A DNA stretch of 32,678 nt from a virus, in the IMG/VR virus record IMGVR_UViG_3300023210_000126, positions 1 to 32,678 of that record. One strand, written 5' to 3'. The position numbers were made by a program, and so were the translations under genes. Under the pieces are notes generated by a model. That model ran no database searches. It was not told the DNA's origin and was given only the letters and a program-made list of their open reading frames with translations. The number at the start of each line of letters is the position of its first letter. Position 1 is the stretch's first letter. Positions 2-24,550 of this stretch are shown here, in pieces.

Positions 2-178
2 TGCCCATACATCCCTCTGATGTCTTCCGGTGTTGTTCTTGATCCGGCTACATTCGAGCCAGTTGTAAGCTTTATGACGAGATATGGCTACGTCGAATTG
101 ACGAATACGGCCTCGAGTCTTGGAAACGCCGGTGACTACTTGGGTGAGATTGCCGTTTCAAATCTTTCATTCACTTAA
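2..178 (+). CDS. 23: Major capsid protein gp23, C-terminal end (partial)
   Basis: The open frame enters from the left edge and stops at TAA 176-178, giving the last 58 residues of a protein. The segment CPYIPL followed about 20 residues later by F-x-TRYG matches the conserved C-terminus of T4-type major capsid proteins (T4 gp23 has SPYIAL ... FKTRYG), and the closing GDYLGEIAVSNL resembles the gp23 end that packs in the hexameric capsomer. The upstream part lies outside the window, so the start, prohead-protease site and length cannot be judged. A strong terminator follows about 70 bases later, as expected for the last gene of a highly expressed late unit. Identification rests on a short stretch, so a related capsid vertex paralogue (gp24-like) is possible. 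Confidence 0.72.
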   Translation, partial: CPYIPLMSSGVVLDPATFEPVVSFMTRYGYVELTNTASSLGNAGDYLGEIAVSNLSFT

Positions 179-246
179 GTCAAGTAAAGAAAATCTTTTA
201 CTTACGTGTTACTTTAAGTAATACTTGAGTACAAGAAACAAGATTA

Positions 247-272
247 GGGGAGCATTCGTGCTCCCCTTTTTT
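247..272 (+). terminator. Rho-independent terminator after gene 23
   Basis: A perfect 8-bp stem GGGGAGCA / TGCTCCCC closes a TTCG tetraloop and is followed by six T. UUCG loops are especially stable in RNA. It separates the capsid gene from the following endonuclease and small-gene cluster. Confidence 0.93.
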
Positions 273-273
273 G

Positions 274-302
274 TTGACAATTCCATCCCCTGTGTGTATA
301 AT
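274..302 (+). promoter_or_regulatory. Consensus sigma70 promoter
   Basis: TTGACA (274-279) and TATAAT (297-302) are separated by exactly 17 bases, with TGTG just before the -10. It starts two bases after the terminator T-tract and points at the endonuclease at 337. It should be read by host RNA polymerase early in infection, unlike the late-type boxes before most virion genes. Confidence 0.8.
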
Positions 303-324
303 ATATAATCGCCTGCATTAGAAT

Positions 325-332
325 GATAAATA
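325..332 (+). promoter_or_regulatory. Late-type promoter box GATAAATA
   Basis: One mismatch from the T4 late -10 consensus TATAAATA. Only four bases (CAAC) separate it from the ATG at 337, and no Shine-Dalgarno is visible there, so a transcript from it would begin at about the AUG. Confidence 0.45.
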
Positions 333-336
333 CAAC

Positions 337-1116
337 ATGAAACACATAATATACAAAACGACACACGTCAATGGGAAGTACTATATTGGAAGACATAGCA
401 CGGACAATATTGACGATGGATATATCGGATCGGGACTATGGCCCAGATCAATCAAGGACAAGTCCACCTTGACGCGAGAGATACTTGAAGAGGCGAACAC
501 CGAGGACGAGTTGATCAAACTAGAGGAACGGTATCTATCTGAGCATTATGGCAAGCCAAACTGTATGAACATGAATGCGGCGAGTACTGGAGCACCCGTG
601 GGTGATCAAAATCCCATGAAACGACCAGAAATAGCCGCAAAAATATCTGGTGATAACCATTGGGTCAATCAACATCCAGAACGACGACAAGAATTAGTAG
701 ATACACAAAATCGTTTGGTAGCAAATGGAACACATAACTTGGCAGGAGACTCCAACCCACAACATAAACCTGAAAACAAAAAGGCAACGGGTAAACGCAC
801 CACCGAGCGCAACCTAACCAATAACCCAATTCATGGCAGCAAACATCCATGGCTACATGGAAAATCTCCTAATGCTAATGGGGAATCGAATAAGAAATTA
901 GTTGAAGCCGGTACACATAATTTTCTAGGGCCAGAGCACAATCGTCGGATGATCGCTGAAGGAAAGAATCCTTGGGTAGGTAGTTCTGCTAATGAAAAGA
1001 TGTTGGCTGCGGGTACACACCCATCACAGCAAAAGAAAACATGTGAACACTGTGGAAAAGAAACGAGCACAGCCATGCACAAGAGATGGCACGGTGAGAA
1101 ATGCAAACAACGTTGA
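337..1116 (+). CDS. GIY-YIG homing endonuclease with NUMOD3-type repeats
   Basis: 259 aa. The N-terminus is a GIY-YIG nuclease: IIYKTTHVNGKYYIGRHST supplies the Y...YIG core and R19, DGYIGSG follows, and E63/E64 lie where the metal-binding Glu is expected. Residues about 90-220 hold repeated G-x-x-NP/HPW segments of the NUMOD3 DNA-binding type. The last 24 residues form a putative zinc finger (C236-x2-C239 ... RWHGEKC256) shared with three other HEGs in this window. Such enzymes cut an HEG-less allele and copy themselves in. It lies directly downstream of gene 23, a conserved target neighbourhood. It has a sigma70 promoter 35-63 bases upstream plus a late-type box abutting the ATG, and its TGA overlaps the ATG of a tiny ORF (TGATG). 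Intact by eye; activity untested. Confidence 0.88.
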   Translation: MKHIIYKTTHVNGKYYIGRHSTDNIDDGYIGSGLWPRSIKDKSTLTREILEEANTEDELIKLEERYLSEHYGKPNCMNMNAASTGAPVGDQNPMKRPEIAAKISGDNHWVNQHPERRQELVDTQNRLVANGTHNLAGDSNPQHKPENKKATGKRTTERNLTNNPIHGSKHPWLHGKSPNANGESNKKLVEAGTHNFLGPEHNRRMIAEGKNPWVGSSANEKMLAAGTHPSQQKKTCEHCGKETSTAMHKRWHGEKCKQR

Positions 1117-1151
1117 TGCGCGAAGCATGGTCCCGTCGTCGTAATGGTTAA
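1116..1151 (+). pseudogene. 11-codon ORF, likely C-terminal relic of an MVKYGI-family gene
   Basis: The ATG shares its A with the TGA of the preceding endonuclease (TGATG). The frame reads MREAWSRRRNG and stops at TAA inside the octamer ATGGTTAA, the same octamer that joins the following three gene pairs. Its Asn-Gly end matches the end of the first array member (KELKNG). I infer it is the tail of a lost upstream member, left when the endonuclease invaded. It may now act as a coupling leader. Confidence 0.4.
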
Positions 1152-1356
1152 GTACGGCATATGGTCTCCCCGAAACATAAAACACAATCAAGGCTTTGGC
1201 CCTCATTGGTGGTTGGGCGGTCTGATACCAACGCCGCCACTATTTTCGACCCGTGCCCAAGCAAATAACTTTATATCGGTGGTGACATCCAATAACAATG
1301 TCTATAAATTGCACCCTAAACAATACGTACCAAAGAAAGAACTCAAGAATGGTTAA
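1144..1356 (+). CDS. MVKYGI-family small protein, copy 1
   Basis: 70 aa, function unknown. It is the first of six tandem paralogues that share an N-terminal MVKYGI(W), a central Trp-rich segment, a TR-x-x-A motif (here FSTRAQAN, about residues 36-43) and a C-terminal K-Q-x-V-P-K-K (here PKQYVPKKE). No signal peptide or membrane segment is apparent; the protein looks like a compact soluble domain. The ATG overlaps the stop of an 11-codon ORF by eight bases. No clear Shine-Dalgarno precedes it, so translation probably depends on coupling. Its last codons overlap the start of copy 2 through the same octamer. I do not recognise the family. Confidence 0.75.
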   Translation: MVKYGIWSPRNIKHNQGFGPHWWLGGLIPTPPLFSTRAQANNFISVVTSNNNVYKLHPKQYVPKKELKNG

Positions 1357-1561
1357 GTACGGCATCTGGTGTAAAGGACAAAGCGGTCGTCCCGCTGTAT
1401 GGTGGAATGAATGGTATTGTAATGGGGTGGAAGATAAGCCAGATGATGCGAAGTTGTTCGCCACTCGTGCTAAATCACAAGAGTATTGTGACCATGTGTC
1501 GGCAGAGCATCCGGATATCATGTACAGGGTCAAGCAATGGGTACCTAAGAATCATGGTTAA
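1349..1561 (+). CDS. MVKYGI-family small protein, copy 2
   Basis: 70 aa, function unknown. It starts MVKYGIWCKG, has Trp pairs near residues 18-22, the FATRAKSQ form of the family TR-x-x-A motif near residue 44, and ends YRVKQWVPKNHG. An in-frame ATG at 1298 exists, but the start at 1349 aligns with the other members and sits inside the ATGGTTAA overlap with copy 1, so it is preferred. The two cysteines are not conserved among copies. Eight-base overlaps on both sides suggest termination-reinitiation coupling and roughly equal output of neighbouring copies. Confidence 0.75.
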   Translation: MVKYGIWCKGQSGRPAVWWNEWYCNGVEDKPDDAKLFATRAKSQEYCDHVSAEHPDIMYRVKQWVPKNHG

Positions 1562-1775
1562 GTATGGAATAATGGTTCGGTCTGTAATAGGCCACCGAAC
1601 AATTGTAAAATGGTATGCTGATGGTCTGCAGGGGAGTGTCCGGTTGTTAAAAACACGTGAAGCTGCAGAAGTTGTGGCTATAGAATGTCGAGAATATGCA
1701 CCTTCTGTCAATTATGAAGTGAAACAGTTCGTGCCTAAAAACGAAGACACATACATAGCTGGCGTTCATGGTTAA
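1554..1775 (+). CDS. MVKYGI-family small protein, copy 3
   Basis: 73 aa, function unknown. It begins MVKYGIMVRS, has the conserved KWYADG segment around residue 20, the TRE-x-A motif (KTREAAE) and Y-E-VKQFVPKN near the end. An upstream in-frame ATG at 1407 would read through the shadow frame of copy 2; the start at 1554 matches the family and the octamer overlap. The C-terminal tail beyond VPKN is a few residues longer than in copies 1 and 2 and ends again in His-Gly before the shared octamer. Confidence 0.74.
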   Translation: MVKYGIMVRSVIGHRTIVKWYADGLQGSVRLLKTREAAEVVAIECREYAPSVNYEVKQFVPKNEDTYIAGVHG

Positions 1776-1992
1776 GTACGGCATACGGGTACAATATCTT
1801 GAAAATCCTTTGGTTGTTGATCAATGGTACTTGACAGGTTACCCTGATATGGTTATGTTATTCAATACACGTGCGCAAGCAGGGGCACATTGTATTAAAT
1901 TGCAGAAAGAATGGCTCACTGTGAAATACACGGTCAAGCAATGGGTTCCCAAGAAAGAAAAGTTGAATCCATCGGGGAGAGATTTATGGTAA
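1768..1992 (+). CDS. MVKYGI-family small protein, copy 4
   Basis: 74 aa, function unknown. It begins MVKYGIRVQY, carries DQWYLTGY in the central aromatic region, FNTRAQAG as the TR-x-x-A motif and YTVKQWVPKKEK near the C-terminus. It is a clear paralogue of its neighbours but as diverged from them as they are from one another, so the array is not a recent amplification. It overlaps copy 3 by eight bases and copy 5 by seven (ATGGTAA). A GGGGAG Shine-Dalgarno inside its 3' end probably serves copy 5. Confidence 0.74.
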   Translation: MVKYGIRVQYLENPLVVDQWYLTGYPDMVMLFNTRAQAGAHCIKLQKEWLTVKYTVKQWVPKKEKLNPSGRDLW

Positions 1993-2198
1993 AGTACGGC
2001 TTTCAGTATTATCATCCCACGATGTATAAATGGTTTTGGCACCGTGTCGATCACAAGAATGGTACATCTGTTCCATTATGGAGAACCCGTGAACGTGCCA
2101 ATGATGCATTAGTACGTCGGGGGTGGTCTTATAAAAATGGTGATACCCAATGGAGAATTCATCAATGGGTTCCGAAGAAATGCAGGACGATCATATAG
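1986..2198 (+). CDS. MVKYGI-family small protein, copy 5
   Basis: 70 aa, function unknown. It starts MVKYGFQYYH, has a run of aromatic and basic residues (YKWFWHRVDH), WRTRERAND as the TR-x-x-A motif and IHQWVPKKC near the end, where His replaces the usual Val-Lys before Gln. An ATG at 1911 is in frame but would overlap copy 4 by 82 bases. The start at 1986 follows GGGGAG with about seven bases of spacing, the best ribosome site in the array, and aligns with the family. Confidence 0.73.
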   Translation: MVKYGFQYYHPTMYKWFWHRVDHKNGTSVPLWRTRERANDALVRRGWSYKNGDTQWRIHQWVPKKCRTII

Positions 2199-2420
2199 AT
2201 GATTAAGTACGGTATATGGTGTGAGTTCAAAAACAAGGTCAAGCGAGATCGCAATGGGTTTTGGATATTCACCACAATACCACATGGCTATCCGCAGGGG
2301 CATAACACCCGAGAGCAAGCAACCGCACATATGAACCGGTGTGTCCATTTATCGACCACTCGATTGCGTGTCAAGCAGATTATCATGAAGAATTTTATCG
2401 ATTCAGATGAGATGTTCTGA
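2199..2420 (+). CDS. MVKYGI-family small protein, copy 6 (divergent)
   Basis: 73 aa, function unknown. It is the most divergent member: MIKYGIWCEF at the start, GFWIFTT in the centre, HNTREQATAH as the TR-x-x-A motif, and RVKQIIMKN in place of the usual VKQWVPKK. The start codon abuts the TAG of copy 5 with no overlap, unlike the first four junctions, and only a distant AGGA lies upstream. Its 3' end runs 26 bases into the convergent gene at 2395-2685, so the array ends here. The lost WVPKK signature may mean relaxed selection or specialisation. Confidence 0.68.
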   Translation: MIKYGIWCEFKNKVKRDRNGFWIFTTIPHGYPQGHNTREQATAHMNRCVHLSTTRLRVKQIIMKNFIDSDEMF

Positions 2421-2685
2421 GTATCATGAGGGTGCGTTCAACGTCGGTCTCACATAATACATCCAACCACTGGCGATATGATAGTCTGAAACCGTGTAGA
2501 TAATATCTACATGGTGTATTTTCATTAACCCATATTACGGATGGTCCGTCTATACGATGATATCCAACGTCTTGCACATGATATCGCACCATGCCGTGGG
2601 TGTGTAATTGGCGTCCATTTTTAAGTCCCGGATTTTCCCGCAAACATCGGGCGAGTTTATATAGGTCTACTGGTGATGCTTTCAT
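2395..2685 (-). CDS. HR-DGP repeat protein, shorter paralogue
   Basis: 96 aa. It contains one copy of an HR-x-DGP-S/A repeat (HRIDGPS, about residues 43-49) followed by W-x(7-8)-R-Y-Y-x-HG and SYRQWLD, a pattern resembling MORN-like repeats seen in scattered phage and bacterial proteins of unknown function. The ATG lies in an ATGA overlap with the stop of the upstream, longer paralogue, so the two are probably co-translated. The N-terminal 40 residues (MKASPVDLYKLARCLRENPG...) look helical. It converges with the MVKYGI array and overlaps its last gene by 26 bases. Function unknown. Confidence 0.65.
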   Translation of the reverse strand: MKASPVDLYKLARCLRENPGLKNGRQLHTHGMVRYHVQDVGYHRIDGPSVIWVNENTPCRYYLHGFRLSYRQWLDVLCETDVERTLMILRTSHLNR

Positions 2686-3032
2686 GATATAATGGACTTT
2701 CTATGGGAGTACGTCAGTATCAGGATTGTTTTCATTTCTGGTGTAATATGAGGTAACGTGAGGTATTCTCTGAACGAATATTGCAAGCCGTGTATAAACC
2801 ACATAATGTCACCACTACCCCACATTATCGCCGGTCCATCCACTCTATGAAGTTTGCCTCTACAGTACCATTTTTTTGTTCCATTTGTTGAGACATATGC
2901 AGGTCCATCATCGCGATGGTAGATTTGTTTGTAGAAGTCATCATGGCTCATAGCATACCACGTCATGGCATCATCCTTGCCATCGGTGAATTTCCATAGG
3001 TCGTCATCGACTAGGGTTGTTGATTTTACCAT
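2682..3032 (-). CDS. HR-DGPA repeat protein, two repeats
   Basis: 116 aa. Two repeats are clear: HRDDGPA at 39-45 and HRVDGPA at 62-68, each followed by a short beta-type stretch with W-Y-x-x-G or W-F-I-HG. The end (YSFREYLTLP...) aligns with SYRQWLDVL of the downstream paralogue, so the two genes arose by duplication. The repeats resemble MORN-like beta-hairpin repeats; no function is established. The predicted ATG sits only six bases after a possible sigma70 -10 on this strand and no Shine-Dalgarno is seen, so either the transcript is leaderless or an internal start is used. Confidence 0.65.
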   Translation of the reverse strand: MVKSTTLVDDDLWKFTDGKDDAMTWYAMSHDDFYKQIYHRDDGPAYVSTNGTKKWYCRGKLHRVDGPAIMWGSGDIMWFIHGLQYSFREYLTLPHITPEMKTILILTYSHRKSIIS

Positions 3033-3038
3033 TTGAAT

Positions 3039-3066
3039 AACATAACATACATCATTTATTTGTCAA
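3039..3066 (-). promoter_or_regulatory. Possible sigma70 promoter for the HR-DGPA pair
   Basis: On the minus strand TTGACA (3066-3061) is followed after 16 bases by TGT-TATGTT, an extended -10 form. The -10 ends six bases before the ATG at 3032. Confidence 0.45.
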
Positions 3067-3068
3067 CC

Positions 3069-3075
3069 CTAAATA
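3069..3075 (+). promoter_or_regulatory. Late-type promoter box CTAAATA abutting the next start
   Basis: CTAAATA is followed by four bases and the ATG at 3080. The same CTAAATA form precedes gp13 and gp18. No Shine-Dalgarno is visible before this ATG. Confidence 0.4.
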
Positions 3076-3079
3076 TTGT

Positions 3080-3676
3080 ATGACTAAAGCATTTGTGATA
3101 GGTAACGGAACATCTCGGGCAGGATTTGACTTAGGTCTCCTACGAGATAAAGGAATCATATACGGTTGTAATCGATTGTATCAAGACACTCATGTGGATG
3201 TATTGGTATCGGTCGATCCGGGGATGTCCTATGAGATACAGGACTCAGGGTATTCAAAAGATCACAAACATTACTGTAGATATCCTCGACATGATGAAGA
3301 AACTGGTGCACTTGATATTCCACCAGAGATTTACGGATGGTCGAGTGGTCCCGCCGCAGTATGGATGGCGGCACAACAGACAGATATCACGGATGTGTAT
3401 TTGCTTGGGTTTGACTTCGTTGGGTTATCCTCTCATCCCAGTATGACAAAGAAGGCGAACAACATGTATGCTGGTACTGAGTTCTATATCACGGAAGATC
3501 ACCCAGAGACATATTTTGGCAATTGGGTTCAACATGTTGGTGAAGTTCACGATATGATGGCGAAAATGAACAAGAATTTGTACATTGTGGGCCGAATGAC
3601 GAACTTTAAGACGGATAGGATGCCTAATTTGATCGATGTTGATTATGAGAAGTTCCGAGATCAGCTAAATACTTGA
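3080..3676 (+). CDS. Rossmann-like protein, MptE/DUF115 or sialyltransferase-like
   Basis: 198 aa. The N-terminus AFVIGNGTSRAGFDLGLLRDKG with IYGCNRLYQD then VDVLVSVDPGM resembles proteins of the MptE-like/DUF115 group and sialyltransferase-like folds, which begin with a GNG-x-S nucleotide-binding loop and then C-N-x-L/A. A second segment, DVYLLGFDFVG, ends a further beta strand. Related proteins occur in several T4-like environmental phages next to structural genes; some family members act in pyrophosphate or sugar-nucleotide transfer. The only promoter candidate is a late-type box four bases before the ATG. It heads a cluster of structural genes, so it may modify a virion or surface component, but that is inference. 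Family assignment is by eye. Confidence 0.55.
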   Translation: MTKAFVIGNGTSRAGFDLGLLRDKGIIYGCNRLYQDTHVDVLVSVDPGMSYEIQDSGYSKDHKHYCRYPRHDEETGALDIPPEIYGWSSGPAAVWMAAQQTDITDVYLLGFDFVGLSSHPSMTKKANNMYAGTEFYITEDHPETYFGNWVQHVGEVHDMMAKMNKNLYIVGRMTNFKTDRMPNLIDVDYEKFRDQLNT

Positions 3677-3690
3677 TAAGGAACTAACAC

Positions 3691-4365
3691 ATGGCCGAAA
3701 CGAAAAGTTATTCAACTTCTTACACTATTTCATCTATCAACGGGACAGATTTCATGTCTTTCACCGATGGTTCTGGTGTTGTGATCAATGCGGATTTGGA
3801 TGTTATCGGCACGATCACCAAGATAACCAGTACTGACACTGAAATCGCAGATAACACGATTCTTTTGAACTCGGGCGAATCCGGTGCAGGGGTAACATTG
3901 ACCACCTCTGGTGTTATCATTGATCGTGGTTCGTCAACTGACGTATCTCTACGTTGGGATGATTCAATCGATGATTGGCAGCTAACCCGTGACGGTTCAA
4001 CATATGAATACATCTTGACATCCGCTACATCGTCTGCAGGTATGACGGAGTTGTTGGATGATTTGACTCCTACATTGGGTGGCGAACTAAAGCTCAACGC
4101 AAAAACGGTCTCCAACAAAAATGATGCTGGAACATATCTAACATCCGATTTGGTTATTGATACCGGAACGGTTGGCGAGCTACGAATTGAGAATGGTGTA
4201 TTGAAGATTGATGAAGTCAGTGATCCGTCCAGTGAAGTTGGATATTCTAAATTGTACGCCAAGGCCGCAGGGGCAGGGGAATCAGGATTATATTTTTCAA
4301 ACAACTCCCACGCAGATGAGTTGATAAGTAGAAGTAAAGCAATCGTTCTCGGAATGATTTTATAA
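3691..4365 (+). CDS. Putative virion/tail-fibre protein
   Basis: 224 aa. Rich in Ser, Thr, Gly and Asp with beta-strand periodicity. It contains LRWDDSIDDWQLTRDGSTYEY, a motif common in phage fibre and capsid-decoration proteins, and TPTLGGELKLNAKTV, typical of fibre-shaft segments. A Shine-Dalgarno AAGGA lies eight bases before the ATG. It follows the DUF115-like gene by 14 bases and precedes three more structural-type proteins, all co-oriented and closely spaced. No cysteines or catalytic motifs are seen. Best read as a minor structural protein or adhesin of the head-tail surface; the exact role is unknown. Confidence 0.6.
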   Translation: MAETKSYSTSYTISSINGTDFMSFTDGSGVVINADLDVIGTITKITSTDTEIADNTILLNSGESGAGVTLTTSGVIIDRGSSTDVSLRWDDSIDDWQLTRDGSTYEYILTSATSSAGMTELLDDLTPTLGGELKLNAKTVSNKNDAGTYLTSDLVIDTGTVGELRIENGVLKIDEVSDPSSEVGYSKLYAKAAGAGESGLYFSNNSHADELISRSKAIVLGMIL

Positions 4366-4374
4366 GGAACAGAA

Positions 4375-4680
4375 ATGGCAATTACAAACACAGCGGTCCT
4401 AGCCACCGACACGACAATTTACACATCAACAAATGATACCGCAGTATCGGTAATCTATTTTTGCAATACATCAGGCGCAACCCGCACATTAGACGTACAT
4501 GCGATTCCTAGTGGCGGTAGTGTTGCGGCAAGTACTCAAATTTATGATCAAATTAGCATCGCACAGAATGACACATTCATTATGGAAACCGAAAGACTTA
4601 TATTGGCTGATAGTGATTTCATTAGTGCAATTAGTGACTCGACCGGTGTCACAGCCACAGTGAGTGCGGTGGCAATCTAA
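4375..4680 (+). CDS. Small putative virion protein
   Basis: 101 aa, function unknown. Strongly alternating beta pattern rich in Thr, Ser and Ala; ASTQIYDQISIAQNDTFIMETERLIL resembles a beta-sandwich common in small phage decoration or fibre-tip proteins. AAGGAACAGAA precedes the ATG. It overlaps the next ATG by one base (TAATG), indicating translational coupling. No membrane or signal segment. Confidence 0.55.
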   Translation: MAITNTAVLATDTTIYTSTNDTAVSVIYFCNTSGATRTLDVHAIPSGGSVAASTQIYDQISIAQNDTFIMETERLILADSDFISAISDSTGVTATVSAVAI

Positions 4681-5072
4681 TGGGCAGACATGCAAAGAAC
4701 ACATATTTGAATGGCAATCGAGTGATCGACGGTGTTACCGCATCACGTCCGACTGATCCAGTTGATGGTATGATATATTGGAATACTACTACTGGTGAAC
4801 TGGAAATATTTGATACCACTTGGGTATCGATTGGTATTTCTGGCACAGCAACCATTGTGCATGACACTTTTGTCGGAGATGGTTCGACCGCAGCATACAC
4901 GATGTCTCAGTCAGTGACCTCGGATGAAGAAATTCGGGTATTCATCATGATAGATAATGTGATGCAAAATCCAGTGTCTGCATATACCGTTTCGGGCACA
5001 GCATTGACCTTTACATCTCCCCCACCAAGCCTCTCAGATATTTCTGTTCGACACGGATTCGATACTGTATAA
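4680..5072 (+). CDS. Putative tail-fibre-associated protein
   Basis: 130 aa. The N-terminal half has ASRPTDPVDGMIYWNTTTGELEIF, the P-x-G-x-x-YWNT-T-x-x-x-x-x-Y/F motif frequent in phage tail-fibre and adhesin proteins. The second half, FVGDGSTAAYTMSQSV ... VFIMIDNVMQNP...YTVSGTALTF, matches a repeat found in T4-like cyanophage structural proteins. The start shares the A of the preceding TAA. A late-type box lies between this gene and the large fibre gene that follows, so the two may be differentially expressed. Confidence 0.6.
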   Translation: MGRHAKNTYLNGNRVIDGVTASRPTDPVDGMIYWNTTTGELEIFDTTWVSIGISGTATIVHDTFVGDGSTAAYTMSQSVTSDEEIRVFIMIDNVMQNPVSAYTVSGTALTFTSPPPSLSDISVRHGFDTV

Positions 5073-5074
5073 AG

Positions 5075-5082
5075 CATAAATA
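5075..5082 (+). promoter_or_regulatory. Late promoter box CATAAATA for the fibre gene
   Basis: CATAAATAC is one mismatch from the T4 late -10 consensus. It lies 54 bases before the ATG at 5137, which has ACAGGAGAAACAC as its ribosome site. Confidence 0.6.
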
Positions 5083-5136
5083 CCTGTACATACGGCGGCA
5101 CACCGACCTTAGAATTGTGGTGTACAGGAGAAACAC

Positions 5137-7080
5137 ATGGCTATTGGTCGCATTTCAGGACCAATGCTTAAGTCAAACCTAACACGATTAGGTACGGATT
5201 TAGCATTTGAAACAGATTTACTTTATTTAGACGTAGCTAATTCTCGTATTGGCATCAACAAAGCCATCCCCACTGTGCCATTGGATGTTGTTGGTGTTGT
5301 TAATTTCAATGCAGGCGCAACCCACATCGGTTTACAGCTAACTGGTACCGATACTTTCCAAGACATTTATCTTGTCAATTCAGGCGGTGCAGTTAGATTA
5401 CGTTCTAATAATGATAATTTTTTAATAGCTCCCAACGGCACTAACACTGCGATTACTGTAAACGGCACTGATCAATCATCTACCTTCTCTGGTGACATCA
5501 CTAACGGAAGCCTTCGTATTGCGGGTAACCAAATCCTCACGGACACCACCAACGAAAACATTGTTCTAGCACCAGCGGGTACTGGATATGTTATTGGTGT
5601 CACCCCTCCAGCATCCGATAACACCACGAAACTCGCAACAACAGCATATGTTCAAACCGAACTTGGTGGCATTACCGTAAACCAAATTGTTCAATTAGAC
5701 ACTAGCATTACCGCAACAGATACGGGTTCTGATGGTACACTAACATTTGACACAGACGGCACAACTGCGCTAACCATTACTGGTGGTGCATCGCCTGTAC
5801 ATACAGTTGTCGGTGTTATTGCAGCACCCGATGGCTCATTTTCAAGTCCACCATTCACAAACACAGGCAACACCAATACAGGAATCTACTTTCCGGCAAC
5901 TGATGCTGTTGGAATCACCGCAGGTAATAGTGAAGGTTTGCGCGTTGGTGGTAATGGTAAGGTATATATCAAAGAGTCATCCAACGCCAGTATGACTACT
6001 GGTTTGACTATTAACCAAGGTACCGCAAGTGATGAAATTCTTGCCTTGAAATCTAGTTCGGATATCACTCACGGAATGACTACGCTAGCAGAAACTGATA
6101 CGTATTTTTCCATTAGAAAGCTATCTGATACAGTCGGCGGTACACAAATACGATCATTCAGTGATACTACTGGTATCTCCGCGTTTGAAATTGCTGCATA
6201 TGATGGCGGCACTCCAGACACTACCGACACCTCTGCCTCTTATGGTATTATTTCATTATCCGGCAGCAAGGCAAACGGAACAGGTAATCAGGTTGCAGCC
6301 GCTACTGAAAACATTATGTCCATTGATGACGGTTCTAGTACCCGCTGGCTAATCAAAGGCAATGGTGACATTCATCAGATTGCAGGTGATTATACGCTTG
6401 ATTCTGGCACAGTAACAGCAACCACATTCTCCGGAGCACTATCGGGCAACGCAACAACCGCAACGTCGGCAGCAGGTTGGACGACCGGTAGAACGATCAC
6501 ATTGACAGGTGATGCTACTGGTGTCTCCGCAGCATGGGATGGAACTGGCAACATATCATTCGCTACTGTTGTGGGCAATGACACCCACACGCATGATGCA
6601 AACAACCTTACTGGAACAATTCTGAATTCTGGAGTTGTTACCTCAAGTCTGACCACCGTTGGTGTATTGGGGTCAGGTTCAATCTCATCCGGCTTTGGAA
6701 ACATTGATAACGGATCGTCTACCTTGTCTACCGGTGCAGCGACCTTCACGGGTGAACTTACTATGTCGGTCACTGATGCTATATCAGCAGCAGGTACCAC
6801 ACAGGGTGCAGCCACGGCCTTGACAACCACATTCAACCGTGTGACCACAGTTGTGTCAGCATCCGCCGAGGCTGTTGTACTACCAACCGCAGTCGCAGGA
6901 AGAGTGATCTATATTTTGAATGCAGACGCAGTGGACACGTTGAAAATTTTCCCAGCTACCAGTGATGATATTAACGATGGTGCTGCGAATGCTTCTACTG
7001 ATTTGGGCCCTGGCGCAAGAATTATGTTTGTTGCAGTGGACGCAACATCTTGGTATGGGTTCTACGGCGTATATGCTTGA
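5137..7080 (+). CDS. Tail-fibre-like structural protein
   Basis: 647 aa. The N-terminus (MAIGRISGPMLKSNLTRLGTDLAFETDLLYLDVANSRIGIN) and PLDVVG shaft-like repeats are typical of long fibre or adhesin proteins of T4-like marine phages. Later segments contain FTNTGNTNTGIYFPATDAVGI and the YTLDSGTVTATTFSGALSGNATTATSA type of shaft repeat, then ILNSGVVTSSLTTVG. The C-terminal 120 residues (VVLPTAVAGRVIYILNADAVDTLKIFP...SWYGFYGVYA) form a small conserved beta domain seen at the end of fibre-like proteins. No peptidase or chaperone (Peptidase S74) motif is evident. AGGAG six bases before the ATG supports the start. It is most likely a trimeric host-recognition or whisker-type fibre. Confidence 0.68.
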   Translation: MAIGRISGPMLKSNLTRLGTDLAFETDLLYLDVANSRIGINKAIPTVPLDVVGVVNFNAGATHIGLQLTGTDTFQDIYLVNSGGAVRLRSNNDNFLIAPNGTNTAITVNGTDQSSTFSGDITNGSLRIAGNQILTDTTNENIVLAPAGTGYVIGVTPPASDNTTKLATTAYVQTELGGITVNQIVQLDTSITATDTGSDGTLTFDTDGTTALTITGGASPVHTVVGVIAAPDGSFSSPPFTNTGNTNTGIYFPATDAVGITAGNSEGLRVGGNGKVYIKESSNASMTTGLTINQGTASDEILALKSSSDITHGMTTLAETDTYFSIRKLSDTVGGTQIRSFSDTTGISAFEIAAYDGGTPDTTDTSASYGIISLSGSKANGTGNQVAAATENIMSIDDGSSTRWLIKGNGDIHQIAGDYTLDSGTVTATTFSGALSGNATTATSAAGWTTGRTITLTGDATGVSAAWDGTGNISFATVVGNDTHTHDANNLTGTILNSGVVTSSLTTVGVLGSGSISSGFGNIDNGSSTLSTGAATFTGELTMSVTDAISAAGTTQGAATALTTTFNRVTTVVSASAEAVVLPTAVAGRVIYILNADAVDTLKIFPATSDDINDGAANASTDLGPGARIMFVAVDATSWYGFYGVYA

Positions 7081-7509
7081 TCATAACGACTCAATCGTTT
7101 TGATTTTCTCTTTGAATTCATCAAAGTTAAACGTGGAGTAAACGCCCGGATGTAATGGCTTCGGGTAAGCATCTATCAATGTCCAACAGTAGCCCTTGTG
7201 CTCGTTGTTCAATAACGGAATGAACTCTCTATCAACCGGACATACGTACGTGTGAAATTCGAACAATCGATCTTCTGATGTAAACTTTTCTATGGGTACA
7301 AATTTGGATATGATCGGAACGAAGCCAATCTCTTCTTTGGATTCACGAACTAACGCAGCAATCTCGGACTCATGTTGTTCCATCTTGCCGCCAACTAATC
7401 CCCATGTGTTGGTGTACTTGGTGTCATCTCTCATCAAGAAAAGATATCGTCTGGTCTCAGTGCTGAAATATAAACACCCTACCGCTTTAACTAGTTTACG
7501 CTTTGCCAT
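7081..7509 (-). CDS. Nudix hydrolase
   Basis: 142 aa, the usual size of a one-domain Nudix enzyme. The Nudix box spans residues 41-63: G-x5-E-x7-RE-x-x-EE-x-G-F, with E47, R55, E56, E59 and E60 available for Mg2+ binding. WGLVGGKMEQHE is the typical lead-in. The family hydrolyses nucleoside diphosphates linked to another moiety; the substrate cannot be read from the sequence. The stop abuts the convergent fibre gene stop with no spacer. The start overlaps the upstream gene by 14 bases, so the two are translationally linked. Phage Nudix proteins can sanitise nucleotides or alter RNA 5' ends; which applies here is unknown. Confidence 0.9.
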   Translation of the reverse strand: MAKRKLVKAVGCLYFSTETRRYLFLMRDDTKYTNTWGLVGGKMEQHESEIAALVRESKEEIGFVPIISKFVPIEKFTSEDRLFEFHTYVCPVDREFIPLLNNEHKGYCWTLIDAYPKPLHPGVYSTFNFDEFKEKIKTIESL

Positions 7510-8098
7510 ATGATATCATACTATCCTTGTATTTTTGATAGGATCGTTCCAAAATTTGTCTGTGTTTATCCTGATCCAAAATCCCTTGGAAATATAAGAT
7601 CATTCTGTTCTGATCCTGATCAGCACCATGTATGCCATCAGACGCCCTCATGACGAACGTGTTCGTCTCTGGTGGGGTTACTCCATATGTCTTGACCCCT
7701 GCCCCATCAACAACGAAAAACTTCCCTACGGTACCGGATATCAACATACGATATCCACACGGCTCATTGGATTGGGTATGATCATATAGTGACTGATTTA
7801 TTTCAGGTGTCGTGAAGTCAATATGCGCCTTTGTCATTAACTCTGGCTTGGTTCTATGAAATTTCACATTTACGTATTCGGTGAACGGCAAATGCATATC
7901 AAAAAAATCTATCACATCTTGCCATTCATCGTGCATAAAATCAGCAAACCCGACCGTGCTGTAATTTTTAGTCGGTTCCGTCAACCTCATTACGTCCCAA
8001 AATCCGAATTCAAATTCAGGGACAAAGGTATCCGCTAACTCATTCAGGCGAGTATTAATCGGAATGTCGATGGGCAAAAATAAAGTGTTTTCAAACAT
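7496..8098 (-). CDS. 2OG-Fe(II) oxygenase-like protein
   Basis: 200 aa from the ATG at 8098 (a GTG at 8113 is also in frame). HID at residues 92-94, H157 in GIHGAD and R165 are spaced like the H-x-D...H...R/K iron and co-substrate site of double-stranded beta-helix dioxygenases, with CGYRMLISG and TFVMRA as core strands. Such phage proteins hydroxylate proteins or modified bases, but the substrate is unknown. It lies directly downstream of the gp15-like gene and overlaps the Nudix gene, forming a small accessory pair inside a structural operon. The ATG lies five bases after a TATACT box without a Shine-Dalgarno. Assignment is by pattern; a cupin-like non-enzymatic fold is an alternative. Confidence 0.5.
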   Translation of the reverse strand: MFENTLFLPIDIPINTRLNELADTFVPEFEFGFWDVMRLTEPTKNYSTVGFADFMHDEWQDVIDFFDMHLPFTEYVNVKFHRTKPELMTKAHIDFTTPEINQSLYDHTQSNEPCGYRMLISGTVGKFFVVDGAGVKTYGVTPPETNTFVMRASDGIHGADQDQNRMILYFQGILDQDKHRQILERSYQKYKDSMISYGKA

Positions 8099-8103
8099 AC
8101 TAC

Positions 8104-8133
8104 AGTATAACACACATCAATGCTATAATACAA
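8104..8133 (-). promoter_or_regulatory. Weak sigma70-like promoter before the oxygenase-like gene
   Basis: Minus strand TTGTAT, 18-base spacer, TATACT, then only five bases to the ATG at 8098. The -35 is poor, so confidence is low. Confidence 0.25.
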
Positions 8134-9544
8134 CACTCCAATGACCACCGGAGTATTCTCCCTCATAGGATTTGATCCACTGATTGGTTGACCATTTGTA
8201 TTGAATGCCAGATGTGGTGTTCGTTACGTACTGTACCGTTGTACCGTTCGCACTAGCATCAAAATCAACAGTCCATTCGGTGCCATCGTATGCAATGATA
8301 TCATTTGCCGATGCAATCAATTCTTCACCACCAGTACCTTTCCAAGCATCCGCACCATCTGTGTTAGAAGCATCTCCGATATCTTCCAATATCAAATATC
8401 TCTGTCCAGACGTAGCTGCGGCCAATCCACCAGCAGTTCCCGGCCCAACTTGGGTAGGATTGACAATACTCAATACTGCTGTTTGGGTGTTGGTGGGAAT
8501 AGTATCTGTGTCCACTGTGAACAACAATACGGTCTTATCAGTAGGATGATATGCAACTGTTCCAACAACTTCAGTGAAAACCTCAATCTCATTGGGGTCT
8601 TGGTTGAATTTCAATTGAGTAATACCACCTGTGAGTTCGCCATATTGATTGATGAAAGCATCCCAATTCATTGCAGTGTTTGCATAATTGATAGAAGGGG
8701 AGCCAATCTCGTCATTCTGGATATCAAGAGTTTCTTGAACTCTCAGTAATTTGACTTGGTTGCCCAATAATAGCACACCAGCATCAAGTGGTGAAATCGT
8801 TTGACGATTGCCCAACAAGATATCATCAGTAAGAATTCCCTGTGGAATTTGGCCGTCTTCGTCATACATACTTGCAATGATCTTGTAGATCACACCAAGC
8901 TTCTTGACCTTCGCTGGCATACTGATCCAAATAGGTGTCTTGAAAGATAACGTAGCGACATCAATTTGATCATCACCGCCCATTGGCACTGAACGAGATG
9001 TCCATTGAACATTCTGAAGTTCAAGAATACTCAATGAGGTCCAATCCAGATAGTTATCGGTAGATTGAAGTTCGAGACTTGGGTTAAACAAACACAAAAT
9101 TTGTTCAAGGAGTTGTAACTTTTGATCGGTATTGCTGGTCCAGATATCCACCTTCACCATCAAATTGTATGGCGCTGGCATAAATCGATCCACTGTGAAA
9201 GCGTTACCTTGTGTGGTCTCATATGACTCGGTGGTCGTGTTATACTTACGTTCACGTAGGTGTTTAGAATCAACGAACGTTGGGTCTTGCCGCCACTCGG
9301 GATTGTAATCCAACGAGTCAACATAGCAACTGATCATGGGAACGGTCTGTGTACCGGACTCACTGTTCTGGCGTAAGATGACAGAAGCTTGTCTTGACGC
9401 ATCTCCATATCGCGCAGGGACGCGCATCAAGGCAGCATTGCCATCTCGTTCAATGCCGGTTTGAACTTGGAAGTTCGAGAACAAGCGAATGATCTGCAGC
9501 AAATATCGCTTGATTTGTTCGTCGTAGAAATGTTGCTGGAGCAT
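8123..9544 (-). CDS. 15: Tail sheath terminator/stabiliser gp15-like
   Basis: 473 aa from the ATG at 9544. The N-terminus MLQQHFYDEQIKRYLLQIIRLFSNFQVQ ... MRVPARYG aligns in pattern with T4 gp15 (FYN-x-x-x-RRY ... LFSNIQ ... IRVPITY), and PAPYNLMVKVDIWT...KLQLLEQILCLFNPSLEL matches the gp15 core (PIKMIYELSIFT ... IVEQILPYFQP). gp15 caps the tail and joins it to the neck. T4 gp15 is 272 aa; here residues about 260-473 are an extra domain whose end (SGIQYKWSTNQWIKSYEGEYSGG) looks like a surface or fibre module. A GTG at 9565 is also in frame, but 9544 matches T4 and starts one base after the stop of an upstream relic gene. Confidence 0.8.
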   Translation of the reverse strand: MLQQHFYDEQIKRYLLQIIRLFSNFQVQTGIERDGNAALMRVPARYGDASRQASVILRQNSESGTQTVPMISCYVDSLDYNPEWRQDPTFVDSKHLRERKYNTTTESYETTQGNAFTVDRFMPAPYNLMVKVDIWTSNTDQKLQLLEQILCLFNPSLELQSTDNYLDWTSLSILELQNVQWTSRSVPMGGDDQIDVATLSFKTPIWISMPAKVKKLGVIYKIIASMYDEDGQIPQGILTDDILLGNRQTISPLDAGVLLLGNQVKLLRVQETLDIQNDEIGSPSINYANTAMNWDAFINQYGELTGGITQLKFNQDPNEIEVFTEVVGTVAYHPTDKTVLLFTVDTDTIPTNTQTAVLSIVNPTQVGPGTAGGLAAATSGQRYLILEDIGDASNTDGADAWKGTGGEELIASANDIIAYDGTEWTVDFDASANGTTVQYVTNTTSGIQYKWSTNQWIKSYEGEYSGGHWSVVL

Positions 9545-9545
9545 G

Positions 9546-9786
9546 TTATTTGTCCATCCATACACGTTTGCCGTCTATCTTTTTCCAAGTCTTTCCCTTG
9601 TACTTCTGACCAACAGCCCTACAATGATCTGCCATCTTTTGTTTGAACTCTTCATTTTCGTACATTTTCTTAGAAACCTCTGATCGCATCTGTTTATATT
9701 CTTCTGTAGATCGTGTTCTCTTGGATCGTTTGCCCTACGTATTTCTTATGGTTGATTGTGTTTGTTATAATATATATGTACATCAT
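9546..9786 (-). pseudogene. Decayed GIY-YIG homing endonuclease
   Basis: From ATGATG at 9786 the frame reads MMYIYIITNTINHKKYVGQT, a textbook GIY-YIG N-terminus, but stops about 30 codons in. In another frame the last 60 or so codons (TRSTEEYKQMRSEVSKKMYENEEF...) end KGKTWKKIDGKRVWMDK before TAA 9548-9546, a C-terminal module usual for phage GIY-YIG endonucleases. The catalytic middle is missing, so an internal deletion with frameshift is inferred. The relic sits exactly between the fibre-like gene and gp15, with one base between its stop and the gp15 ATG, so it marks an old HEG insertion. Confidence 0.75.
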
Positions 9787-9787
9787 G

Positions 9788-9795
9788 TATTTATG
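9788..9795 (-). promoter_or_regulatory. Late promoter box CATAAATA before the HEG relic
   Basis: Minus strand CATAAATA ends one base before the ATG at 9786 and four bases before the second ATG at 9783, the same close spacing seen at other HEG starts. It may now serve gp15 downstream. Confidence 0.45.
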
Positions 9796-9829
9796 CCAAT
9801 AAAGTAAAAGTGCGTTTGTAAAGCCATGA

Positions 9830-11140
9830 TTATCCTAGGTCTGGTTCAAAGGTTTGCGTGATGAATAGTTTGGCATCCCAAATCTTGATATCTGAATCTC
9901 TTGGGGTTAAGTAAATAGTTCCACCATTGGTGATGAATGTTCCGAGTGTGAAAATGGGAATGCTCCATGAAAATTGATTGTCTAAGTTCGCACCCTTAAC
10001 AAAGATTTTGTGTTCCGCAAACACAACACCAAGCGCACCGCCGATATCAATTTCTAAATCGATGTGTGCTTGTAAACCAGCATCATATGAAGCCGTGATC
10101 TGCAAACGTATATCATAACAATTTCCAGACGTGGCGGGTGTGATTTTATTAGTTGATGTATTCCAAATTGAACCTGATAATGGTGCGTATGTAGTATTTG
10201 TACCACTTGCAAGACCATCGATGGTTAATTGTGTTCTTGCGTCTTCTACTATCGCTAATTTGTTAGAGACAATATTAATAGACTCTGCATGATTTGTCCA
10301 ACCGCCCACTCTTGTATTTGGAGTGCCTGTATTATCTTTGAAAGTCCAACCAGTCGAACTCTCATCAATTCCGCCAGCATCCAATGGCGTCCCTGCCGCA
10401 GCAAAAGTACAATTCGAAAATTGTCCAGATGTGGCAGGATTAATAGCACTATCAATATCAATTCCGGTTTGACCGGCAGCAGTAAGAAATTGTGTACCAT
10501 CCACATTGAAAATATTTGGAGTAGTACCGGATGCCATTGTCATCATAGTTGGCGTTCCAGTGAGACTAAAGAACCCACATGATCTAAACAGTATAGCAGT
10601 CCATGCTCCACTAATGGTTACACCAGCCGCACCACCCGACCATCGTGTGTTGGTGAATACCGCAGCAATACCATTAGTAATGGAATCTACGCCAGCGGAA
10701 TTAAGTGTAATATCATCGAATCTGTAAAATTTACCAGCCGCACCAAGATTGAAACATGGACCACCCGTGTTTGTCAAACTACAGTGCATAATCGTTAGGG
10801 TCTCATCACTGGTGATCATCGCGGCAACGTTGTTTGTTGTTAGTGATATAACCTCTGAACTTCTTCCAAAAATTCCAATAGCGCCAGCCGAAGCGTCTAT
10901 TCGGTTCACACCAATATCAATTGCACCATTTATCATGTAAGTTTTCCCAGTAACTAGCGTGATAACACCAGAAACTGGTGTTGGGAAATCAGCCAACGCA
11001 TTAATCTCTACAACTGCGGCAGGGTCTTTAACAGACACAACTAAATCTCTCATGTCTTGTGCAGTGATGGCACCGTTTGATTGACCGTCTTGAAATAATG
11101 TTGTTAATAATTCTGTTGTTGTTCTTACTGTATCTACCAT
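9830..11140 (-). CDS. Beta-helix fibre or whisker-like structural protein
   Basis: 436 aa. The N-terminus (TELLTTLFQDGQSNGAITAQDMRDLVVSVK) is a short domain common to phage fibre-like proteins. The middle, about 60-290, has evenly spaced Asn, Thr and Gly with segments such as FRFDDITLNSAG and FSNCTFAAAGTP, suggesting a right-handed beta helix like that of pectate-lyase folds and tail spikes, though no catalytic residues are evident. The C-terminal 150 residues resemble a jelly-roll head domain (YDIRLQITASYDAGLQAHIDLEI...). It lies between gp14 and gp15, the place where neck-associated fibres sit in relatives, so a neck whisker or collar fibre is a reasonable inference. It starts nine bases after the gp14 stop. 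Confidence 0.6.
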   Translation of the reverse strand: MVDTVRTTTELLTTLFQDGQSNGAITAQDMRDLVVSVKDPAAVVEINALADFPTPVSGVITLVTGKTYMINGAIDIGVNRIDASAGAIGIFGRSSEVISLTTNNVAAMITSDETLTIMHCSLTNTGGPCFNLGAAGKFYRFDDITLNSAGVDSITNGIAAVFTNTRWSGGAAGVTISGAWTAILFRSCGFFSLTGTPTMMTMASGTTPNIFNVDGTQFLTAAGQTGIDIDSAINPATSGQFSNCTFAAAGTPLDAGGIDESSTGWTFKDNTGTPNTRVGGWTNHAESINIVSNKLAIVEDARTQLTIDGLASGTNTTYAPLSGSIWNTSTNKITPATSGNCYDIRLQITASYDAGLQAHIDLEIDIGGALGVVFAEHKIFVKGANLDNQFSWSIPIFTLGTFITNGGTIYLTPRDSDIKIWDAKLFITQTFEPDLG

Positions 11141-11149
11141 TTGTTATCC

Positions 11150-12319
11150 TTAATCAAATTCTGCGGCAAACGCTGCAGCGAACGCGCCTTCTATGTCTGG
11201 TGTAGCAACGATATCAGCTTTCGCCGATAACAAATCACTTAAGTTCTGGTTAACATTCACAGTCGTTACACCATCTTGTGCCGTGAATGTTCCTGAGTTG
11301 TTAATGAACGATCCTCTGATATTTAGGGATGTTCCCGGTGAGTAATCAGTATTCACCGCATCTTCGATCTTGACCCACTTAGCGCCATCCCAGCGGAACA
11401 ATCTATTAGGTAGATAGTCCAGCCTCAATACATAGTCACCTATGCTCGGGGATGTTGGGAAGGTAATGCTCGGCAACACCGAGAAACCATTGGGAGCTTC
11501 GCCGTCGCCGTACAACAATGTATTGGTGAAGTTCGCATTAGCTGATTCTTCAGGACCAAGCATCTCTCCACTGTCGTCATCAACAGGAACAACATAGAAT
11601 TGATCAATGTCGTACCCAGACTCAGGGGTTTCGGCTTCAGCTTGTTGGAGAATGGCGTCGTTGATCGCGATTTCGTCTTGATATGAACTCAACAGGTCTT
11701 TAAGGGTCGAGCCACCTTCGCTGAATGTTGTGTTCGTGAAGATATCTCGGTATTCTTGTGAATCCACAATAGGAGTACATTTGACGCGCCATAAATGAGG
11801 CCACCACGAAGGCCCGAAGCCTTCGGAAGCATTGCTTGCGTCTTCGATCTTGTAATACCGCTTCAGTGCCGCCGGAATCCCCTCATGACCTAAACTGTAA
11901 TAGTCTTTCAGGTGTTGAAGTTCCAACACATCACCATTCATGAGCTTTCTGCCCAGTTGTGCGACCATATCGTTGATATGGAATGTGATAAACAGAGTAT
12001 CCCCTGCTAATGTCAAACCAAACTGAGATAAATCGAAGTCAATGTCGGAAACGTTGTACACACCACGTATATCGTACACCGATTGGTCATATTTGCGATC
12101 ACGGTTCTCTAAAAACAACAAATCTTGAATGTTTTGCTCACTAACTGTTGCATATGATGGCTCAGTCGCGTCTTCAGTGGCACCTTGATCAAAAGTACCA
12201 AGATATAGATGCACATTTATTCCGGTTCCGCCAATAGTATACATCTCAGATGCACGTTGATCCTGAAACTGATAATCGGTATTGTGCTGACCATTTTGCC
12301 ACAAACTTATCTTTGGAAT
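11150..12319 (-). CDS. 14: Neck protein gp14-like, apparent AUU start
   Basis: About 389 aa. SDIDFDLSQFGLTLAGDTLFITFHIND ... GDVLELQHL followed by PHLWRVKCTPIVDSQEYRD resembles the gp14 core of T4-type phages (DFISKFGL-x-I-x-D-x-V...GDLIYFP...FEINWV). gp14 works with gp13 in the neck to close the filled head and accept the tail. There is no ATG: the first candidate with a good ribosome site (AGGAG, seven bases away) is ATT at 12319, giving (M)PKISLWQNGQHNTDY; an in-frame TTG at 12304 lacks a well-spaced site. T4 gp14 is 256 aa, so the C-terminal 130 or so residues, including a FRWDGAKWVKI fibre-type motif, are an extension. A late box lies 24-31 bases upstream. Confidence 0.62.
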   Translation of the reverse strand: MPKISLWQNGQHNTDYQFQDQRASEMYTIGGTGINVHLYLGTFDQGATEDATEPSYATVSEQNIQDLLFLENRDRKYDQSVYDIRGVYNVSDIDFDLSQFGLTLAGDTLFITFHINDMVAQLGRKLMNGDVLELQHLKDYYSLGHEGIPAALKRYYKIEDASNASEGFGPSWWPHLWRVKCTPIVDSQEYRDIFTNTTFSEGGSTLKDLLSSYQDEIAINDAILQQAEAETPESGYDIDQFYVVPVDDDSGEMLGPEESANANFTNTLLYGDGEAPNGFSVLPSITFPTSPSIGDYVLRLDYLPNRLFRWDGAKWVKIEDAVNTDYSPGTSLNIRGSFINNSGTFTAQDGVTTVNVNQNLSDLLSAKADIVATPDIEGAFAAAFAAEFD

Positions 12320-15784: not shown

Positions 15785-15814
15785 TTGACACTAATCTGTG
15801 AGATTTGATATAAT
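15785..15814 (+). promoter_or_regulatory. Consensus sigma70 promoter, possibly leaderless
   Basis: TTGACA (15785-15790), 18-base spacer, TATAAT (15809-15814) with an extended TGA just before it. The ATG at 15820 is five bases after the -10, so the start site should fall at about the AUG, and no Shine-Dalgarno is visible. Confidence 0.72.
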
Positions 15815-15819
15815 TATGA

Positions 15820-16503
15820 ATGTCAAAATTACAAGATATCATAGATGATCCCAAAAATCAACTACTAGAATACTGCAATCATTATGTTCTGATTGAAAAA
15901 GACATCGGCATGGGCAGTACCATGAAAAGTGCATACGCACTCGATGGCGGATATATCGGAGATCAAGAAGAAGCCGAGAAATGGATAGTAGAACGAGGCG
16001 TCATTCCTGAGTTAGCATCCCCAACTCATAACACATGTAGCATAGGATTTTGTGAAGCAGAACAATCATGGCACTGCTGGTCACATCGCGCCCGATATCA
16101 TTTCGGAATTGGCGACAGCACCAAGAAGGGTGACTGCAGTTATTATCCAGCCAACAAAGAAGACTTCATTGAAGATGTCCTAACCTTTTGGGGTGACAAC
16201 GAGTATCACGAAAAACATTGGGCCGAGGAAGGCACCGATACTATTAATATTTACGGCGAAACTTTCACCACATCCGATAATGAAATGGAAGCAGACATTC
16301 CTGATGTTATCGACACCAAAGTAGTCAAAGGTGTATGGATCAACTCATTGTACAACGATAAGGTTCCTAATGAGAAGTTAAGAGGAACCATCAATCGACG
16401 GTTCTGCGAGTTCCCTACAACATACGGCAGGGGTGAGTGGACTGTTACAACATTAACCGAGGCACGTCAAATGGCGTGTGATTTTGCGAACGGCGTATCA
16501 TGA
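15820..16503 (+). CDS. Unrecognised phage protein with Cys/His-rich core
   Basis: 227 aa. The central part CSIGFCEAEQSWHCWSHRARYHFGIGD...KKGDCSYYPA (about 68-112) is a pattern I have seen in uncharacterised phage proteins (CSIGF-C...W-x-GWSHRA-x-x-FGIG); the clustered Cys and His might bind metal. It also has a FWGDNEYHEKHW segment and ends ARQMACDFANGVS. It is separately driven by a sigma70 promoter, unlike the flanking late genes, so it may be made early. Its TGA overlaps an ATG (ATGA) followed by ATC, which I interpret as the ancestral start of gene 1 before an HEG was inserted. Function unknown. Confidence 0.7.
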   Translation: MSKLQDIIDDPKNQLLEYCNHYVLIEKDIGMGSTMKSAYALDGGYIGDQEEAEKWIVERGVIPELASPTHNTCSIGFCEAEQSWHCWSHRARYHFGIGDSTKKGDCSYYPANKEDFIEDVLTFWGDNEYHEKHWAEEGTDTINIYGETFTTSDNEMEADIPDVIDTKVVKGVWINSLYNDKVPNEKLRGTINRRFCEFPTTYGRGEWTVTTLTEARQMACDFANGVS

Positions 16504-17208: not shown

Positions 17209-17213
17209 ACTAT

Positions 17214-17221
17214 TATTTATC
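17214..17221 (-). promoter_or_regulatory. Late promoter box GATAAATA abutting the HEG start
   Basis: Minus-strand GATAAATA is followed by five bases and the ATG at 17208, predicting a leaderless late transcript for the HEG. Confidence 0.45.
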
Positions 17222-17233
17222 AGGAGAAAATAA

Positions 17234-24538: not shown

Positions 24539-24550
24539 TAAGGAAAACCG

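Follow-up and report, generated by a model that had tools for sequence, protein, structure and literature searches.

A cassette of six paralogous small genes, in which the start of one gene supplies the stop of the preceding one, was found in a window of 32,678 bases (the complete IMG/VR record IMGVR_UViG_3300023210_000126), a genome fragment of a phage that, judged by its tail sheath, tail tube, gp15, neck and head-closure genes, is T4-like. The six genes, here called the array, belong to an MVKYGI family, encode proteins of 70-74 amino acids (aa), and stand in frame and head to tail on the + strand (1144-2420). They are preceded by a homing endonuclease gene and a perfect sigma-70-type promoter. 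We favor, tentatively and with a little less than even confidence, the explanation that the genes form an accessory operon of early type, through which this T4-like phage would produce coupled, host-directed proteins, possibly for counter-defence.

Gene 1 spans 1144-1356 (70 aa; isoelectric point, pI, 10.4), gene 2 1349-1561 (70 aa, pI 7.7), gene 3 1554-1775 (73 aa, pI 8.8), gene 4 1768-1992 (74 aa, pI 9.5), gene 5 1986-2198 (70 aa, pI 10.4), and gene 6, which starts with M-I in place of M-V, 2199-2420 (73 aa, pI 9.8). The first three junctions are the same 8-nucleotide (nt) overlap, ATGGTTAA (1349-1356, 1554-1561, and 1768-1775), the fourth is the 7-nt overlap ATGGTAA (1986-1992), and at the fifth genes 5 and 6 abut, with TAG directly followed by ATG (2198/2199), so that the junction distances are -8, -8, -8, -7, and 0. 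The first-pass annotation had described six tandem related genes with these junctions, and the in-frame open reading frames (ORFs), their mutual blastp matches and the coordinates bear it out. It had placed the beginning of the array at 1116, which is instead the start of an 11-codon remnant ORF; the family begins at 1144. Furthermore, it had overlooked that gene 1 itself begins at a stop-start junction, newly recognized here: a further copy of the octamer (1144-1151) links the remnant ORF to gene 1. Besides its copies at 1144, 1349, 1554, and 1768, ATGGTTAA occurs just three times on both strands of the window. A chain of six ATG-initiated ORFs of at least 60 codons never appeared among 2,000 simulated sequences (first-order Markov, modeled on the region, 1,500 nt each), in which the longest chain was two.

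The six proteins share 24-40% aligned identity, and each matches at least one other with a blastp E value of 1.3e-5 or lower (database of six). Nine residues are invariant (M1, K3, Y4, G5, one Trp, Thr-Arg, Gln, and Lys), giving a common layout of an M-x-K-Y-G start, one Trp, Thr-Arg ahead of a helix, and, toward the end, Gln and Lys. The ends had been described as fixed, which is right for the N-terminal start; the C-terminal end is variable, and the segment VKQWVPKK given for it is only an approximation of PKQYVPKK, VKQWVPKN, VKQFVPKN, VKQWVPKK, IHQWVPKK, and VKQIIMKN. Beyond codon 6, the same codon was used in 91 of 210 pairs of identical residues, versus 84.7 expected from the codon usage of the phage. 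This near-expected value indicates saturated synonymous sites, and together with the nine invariant residues it argues that the array genes are real and under protein-level selection. We conclude from these codon and residue comparisons that all six encode selected proteins.

The gene starts behave differently. In codons 2-6, the same codon was used in 43 of 65 pairs versus 27.7 expected (p about 0.002-0.005), as exemplified by AAG in all six genes and by ATA, a rare codon, in four of five. The excess persisted (p about 0.01) when the count was limited to codons 3-6, leaving out codon 2, in which the upstream TAA requires GTT. Codon 2 has drifted to ATT in gene 6, where the overlap is not needed, and is GTA in gene 5, which has the 7-nt junction. 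These data point to an extra constraint at the DNA or RNA level at the gene starts, with the initiation region or recombination as candidates.

All array junctions fall inside the range of -8 to +6 that Huber et al. link to termination-reinitiation, in line with the reinitiation-type geometry proposed in the first-pass annotation; among prokaryotic overlap classes, -8 ranks third in frequency (PMC10666635). Its statement that most members lack a Shine-Dalgarno sequence stands in part: genes 1 and 3 have none and genes 2 and 4 a weak one, while genes 5 (GGGGAG) and 6 (AGGA) have Shine-Dalgarno-like sequences. With overlaps of 8, 7, and 0 nt and several starts with little Shine-Dalgarno sequence, the array resembles known termination-reinitiation gene pairs (PMC10666635, PMC6728339). 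It differs from them in that several junctions follow one another in series and repeat one octamer, and in that a conserved protein start dictates the upstream stop. Since the conserved MVK codons (ATG GTT AAG) provide the stop of the preceding gene, copying one start-to-start unit preserves the coupling, as had been proposed. Translational coupling along the array and duplication-proof junctions are thus likely.

Overlapping genes are also enriched among those for subunits of heteromeric complexes (PMC10666635). The six proteins might accordingly be subunits of one assembly, e.g., a ring or filament, with the overlaps ensuring fixed proportions and cotranslational assembly; the presence of six intact copies with the same fold elements and invariant residues would suit this. 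However, the copies are strongly unlike in sequence and in net charge (+0.7 to +9.8 at pH 7), and the set is absent from the other T4-like phages searched, which is odd for a complex. We consider such an assembly unlikely.

The left edge of the array was compared with two sister contigs. The first gene of the operon (337-1116, + strand) encodes a GIY-YIG-type homing endonuclease that matches PHROG 314 (homing endonuclease, E=2.2e-24); in Pfam, GIY-YIG reached just E=0.063, under the family cut-off. The remnant ORF behind it (1116-1151, + strand; MREAWSRRRNG) overlaps the endonuclease stop with its ATG, as TGATG, and has its TAA inside the first ATGGTTAA. In the 50-kb sister contig L040 (IMGVR_UViG_3300023210_000048), a different homing endonuclease of 275 aa, also of PHROG 314, lies between the gp23 end and the array. 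It ends in REAWSRRRNG, and its TAA sits in the ATGGTTAA of gene 1; the remnant is thus the C-terminal tail of the sister phage's endonuclease. Window positions 1115-1236 are 100% identical to L040. The third contig, L049, is a copy of the same phage with an identical array sequence, and the 3' part of the endonuclease gene (984-1074) holds 19 of the 20 differences between this contig and the window, suggesting recombination inside this free-standing gene. The endonuclease genes after the capsid gene thus differ among the sister contigs (window 337-1074 versus L040 and L049). The comparisons show that endonucleases were exchanged at the left edge of the array and that the stop-start link into gene 1 was retained.

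Since the endonuclease genes directly upstream were swapped among sister phages, with a breakpoint adjoining gene 1, the array might be a by-product of mobile endonucleases, a cassette amplified by recombination and of little function for the phage. We regard this as very improbable, because six intact frames, the saturated synonymous sites and the invariant residues speak for long selection on the proteins.

The operon has its own transcription signals. Upstream of it ends a gene for a gp23-like major capsid protein (C-terminal end at 2-178, + strand; DNA 91% identical to the L040 gene, 394 aa). The gp23 assignment is putative, following the position after portal/prohead-type genes and the character of the sequence rather than a family search. 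Between this gene and the operon are an intrinsic-terminator-like hairpin of nine pairs with a T-rich tail (246-267, + strand) and a sigma-70-type promoter that matches the consensus exactly (TTGACA-17-TATAAT; 274-302, + strand), 34 bases upstream of the endonuclease start. Perfect sigma-70 promoters occur twice in the window versus 0.04 times expected, for an E. coli-type consensus that may not be that of the host. The second one (15785-15814) ends 5 bases ahead of the first ATG of a gene (15820-16503, 227 aa) of the anti-Thoeris Tad6 family (Pfam PF25188, E=1.6e-44); the true start of this gene may be a later ATG, or its transcript may be leaderless. L040 contains only two promoter matches of at least 11/12, one just upstream of a gp47-like gene and one inside a gp46-like gene, and gp47 and gp46 are recombination genes that are early genes in T4. 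A gp55-type late sigma gene is also present in L040. T4-late boxes, TATAAATA, were detected just upstream of two other endonuclease genes (window 28812, L040 36666), and none was detected near the array operon. From the sigma-70 promoter, the absence of TATAAATA and the placement of the L040 promoters, we infer as the best reading that the array is expressed early or by the host polymerase.

The flanks of the operon, with the major capsid gene on one side and structural (fiber-like, tail) genes on the other, all on the same strand, could instead suggest minor virion or capsid-decorating proteins that are used late. The array indeed directly follows the capsid gene and precedes the fiber-like genes. 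Nevertheless, we consider a virion role quite improbable in view of the promoter type, i.e., an own perfect sigma-70 promoter behind an upstream terminator with no TATAAATA late promoter nearby; furthermore, the endonuclease insertion may have carried the cassette to its position at the capsid gene.

An early accessory operon has parallels in related phages. In five T4-like phages, about 90% of the unique ORFs are found among the early and middle genes, in operons of their own (PMC1524935). Similarly, the array ORFs are small, have no database relatives, are clustered together, have their own host-type promoter and lie on the same strand as the flanking genes. In contrast to those operons, the array is made up of paralogues, six from a single family, whose junctions are fused, and its surroundings, downstream of the capsid gene, are late genes.

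Searches for relatives of the array proteins identified no significant family in Pfam, PHROGs, NCBIfam, or PADLOC and no relative in a PDB sequence search. The family had been left unnamed in the first-pass annotation, and the profile search suggested there, which we ran, did not match a known family either. The profile had no real match in 50 tail-tube-related and 50 gp23-related records or in T4, KpV477, CC31, and 7-11, and tblastn queries with gene 2, gene 4, and the consensus of the profile gave chance matches only in 50,697 phages. When viral contigs were scanned with the start and end motifs, the only matches to carry the family were the same-phage copies L049 and L040; the single match of a genome-contig scan, a repeat protein of TPR character, was by chance. 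Gene 4 weakly matched T4 Y13H (Pfam PF25744) over the TR-x-x-A helix (E=0.13). This identity was rejected, since 12.6 bits against a cut-off of 27 is at chance level for six queries, and the Y13H match was found in none of 14 related records. Matches to phrog_2430 and phrog_1079 were likewise weak, at chance level for six queries.

AlphaFold models of the gene 2 and gene 4 products (pLDDT 78 and 77) predicted a beta-beta-alpha-beta core, with a small sheet and one helix beginning at Thr-Arg; the second strand was poorly resolved in the gene 4 model. A viral fold search returned 1,170 loose matches, the best at E=0.004, and most of them were uncharacterized phage proteins 50-75 residues long; the predicted core is typical of small phage proteins. 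Among solved structures, 8g9s, an entry on type I-C CRISPR, gave the best match to both models with its chain A (E=0.36 and 0.29, TM 0.59). Chains of AcrIC9 (PDB 8hjj) appeared lower down in the match list of the second model. In AcrIC9 the elements follow in the order beta-beta-alpha-beta-alpha-alpha, and the surface is highly acidic (PMC10478522). The core predicted for the array proteins may correspond to the beta1-beta2-alpha1-beta3 core of AcrIC9 and 8g9s chain A, in matches that are not significant, whereas AcrIC9 has two additional helices and is acidic and the array proteins are neutral to strongly basic. With a pI of 7.7-10.4 in all six, the DNA-mimic feature of AcrIC9 fails, and the match was therefore treated as a generic small fold. 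No sequence similarity to anti-CRISPRs was found either (best, AcrIIC5 at E=0.6, chance). Because of E values of 0.3 and the opposite charge, the resemblance to an anti-CRISPR in the fold search was kept as a lead only.

The basic character (pI 8.8-10.4 in five of six) and the invariant Lys, Arg, and Gln raise the question of nucleic-acid-binding regulators, acting on transcription or RNA of host or phage. This is improbable, since the charge is not conserved among the copies and no DNA- or RNA-binding family was matched in the library searches.

According to the explanation that we favor, the promoter at 274-302 would produce one transcript of the homing endonuclease, the 11-codon remnant and the six paralogous 8-kDa genes. 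Ribosomes would load at the endonuclease gene and reach each following gene through stop-start coupling, each conserved M-V-K start (ATGGTTAAG) doubling as the source of the stop for the preceding gene. The paralogues would have arisen by tandem duplication of start-to-start units, with coupling preserved, and later diverged under protein-level selection. Each copy would be a small, mostly basic, Trp-containing beta-beta-alpha-beta protein, and the set would bind and modulate host targets in takeover or counter-defence, with the copies having diverged toward different targets. The first-pass annotation had guessed at inhibitors, adaptors, or surface-binding modules. The promoter type and the parallel to the Tad6-family gene incline us to host-directed proteins made early rather than virion parts; with the general habit of T4-like phages, they make host takeover or counter-defence the most probable role, and it is the least certain part of the proposal.

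Several observations weigh against this explanation. The operon is surrounded by late structural genes (capsid, fiber-like, tail) rather than placed in an early block, the Tad6 homologue is 13 kb away, and the known relatives of the family are confined to the same phage population. The promoter fits an E. coli-type consensus, which may not be that of the host; moreover, the promoter may serve the upstream endonuclease, and L040 has just a weaker promoter-like sequence at the operon (about 9/12, by eye). None of the fold matches reaches significance, with E=0.004 for the best viral one and E=0.29 for the best solved structure.

It is also conceivable, although we think it rather unlikely, that the array is a modular diversification cassette, in which the fixed start ATGGTTAAGTACGGCAT would serve as start codon, stop of the preceding gene and short recombination repeat. 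If so, copies could be added, lost, or swapped singly with translation unbroken, providing the phage with an adjustable set of inhibitors for a family of host defences that itself varies, and an unrelated array of 30 copies would be the same design invented a second time. This array (L035, IMGVR_UViG_3300037512_002016) was found by aligning neighboring small ORFs across 2.35 Mb of loci, where rows of joined paralogous small ORFs were few and L035 stood out. Over 11 kb (21-11282), it comprises about 30 tandem paralogues of about 100 aa, most of them chained by a 4-nt ATGA overlap within CCATGATT. No Pfam family was found for them. A HisA-like gene (5341-6117; Pfam His_biosynth, E=1.4e-28) interrupts the row, and L035 may be viral or bacterial. 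The two arrays have in common small paralogues joined by one repeated overlap, which in L035 goes with fixed last residues before the stop. In contrast to the L035 row, with its larger proteins, 4-nt overlap and HisA-like interruption, the array of the window is far smaller, and its family is unrelated in sequence. Paralogue rows with one repeated overlap therefore arose more than once; in the literature on tandem paralogue arrays in phages, we found nothing directly comparable. Abutting paralogue pairs of about 122 aa with zero gap stand in T4-like contigs (L172/L173, 15714-16448; L125, 3046-3801), the proteins starting with MRxRE or MRFRE.

Downstream of the array, a candidate terminator hairpin with a weak T tail, from a consensus scan only, lies on the + strand at 2491-2515 within a minus-strand ORF. 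Two overlapping minus-strand genes with HR-x-DGPA repeats (2395-3032), paralogues of each other with a 4-nt overlap, are convergent with gene 6 and overlap its 3' end. Elsewhere in the window, two adjoining genes (23921-25714) each have a match in tail tube families (PHROG 4542) and represent a structural gene in tandem duplicate. A deoxynucleoside monophosphate kinase match (17357-17857; PHROG 139) lacks about 145 N-terminal profile positions and adjoins a minus-strand HNH-type gene (16498-17289); the kinase gene was possibly broken or displaced by a mobile element.

In paralogues with one repeated start-stop overlap, copy number and translation level would be evolvable together. The sister phage illustrates that the left edge of such a cassette can be rebuilt through endonuclease exchange with coupling retained. 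The family is new to all libraries searched and small enough for gene-by-gene tests, and the promoter class that it has in common with the anti-Thoeris homologue marks the array as a concrete candidate set of proteins directed at the host or its defences.

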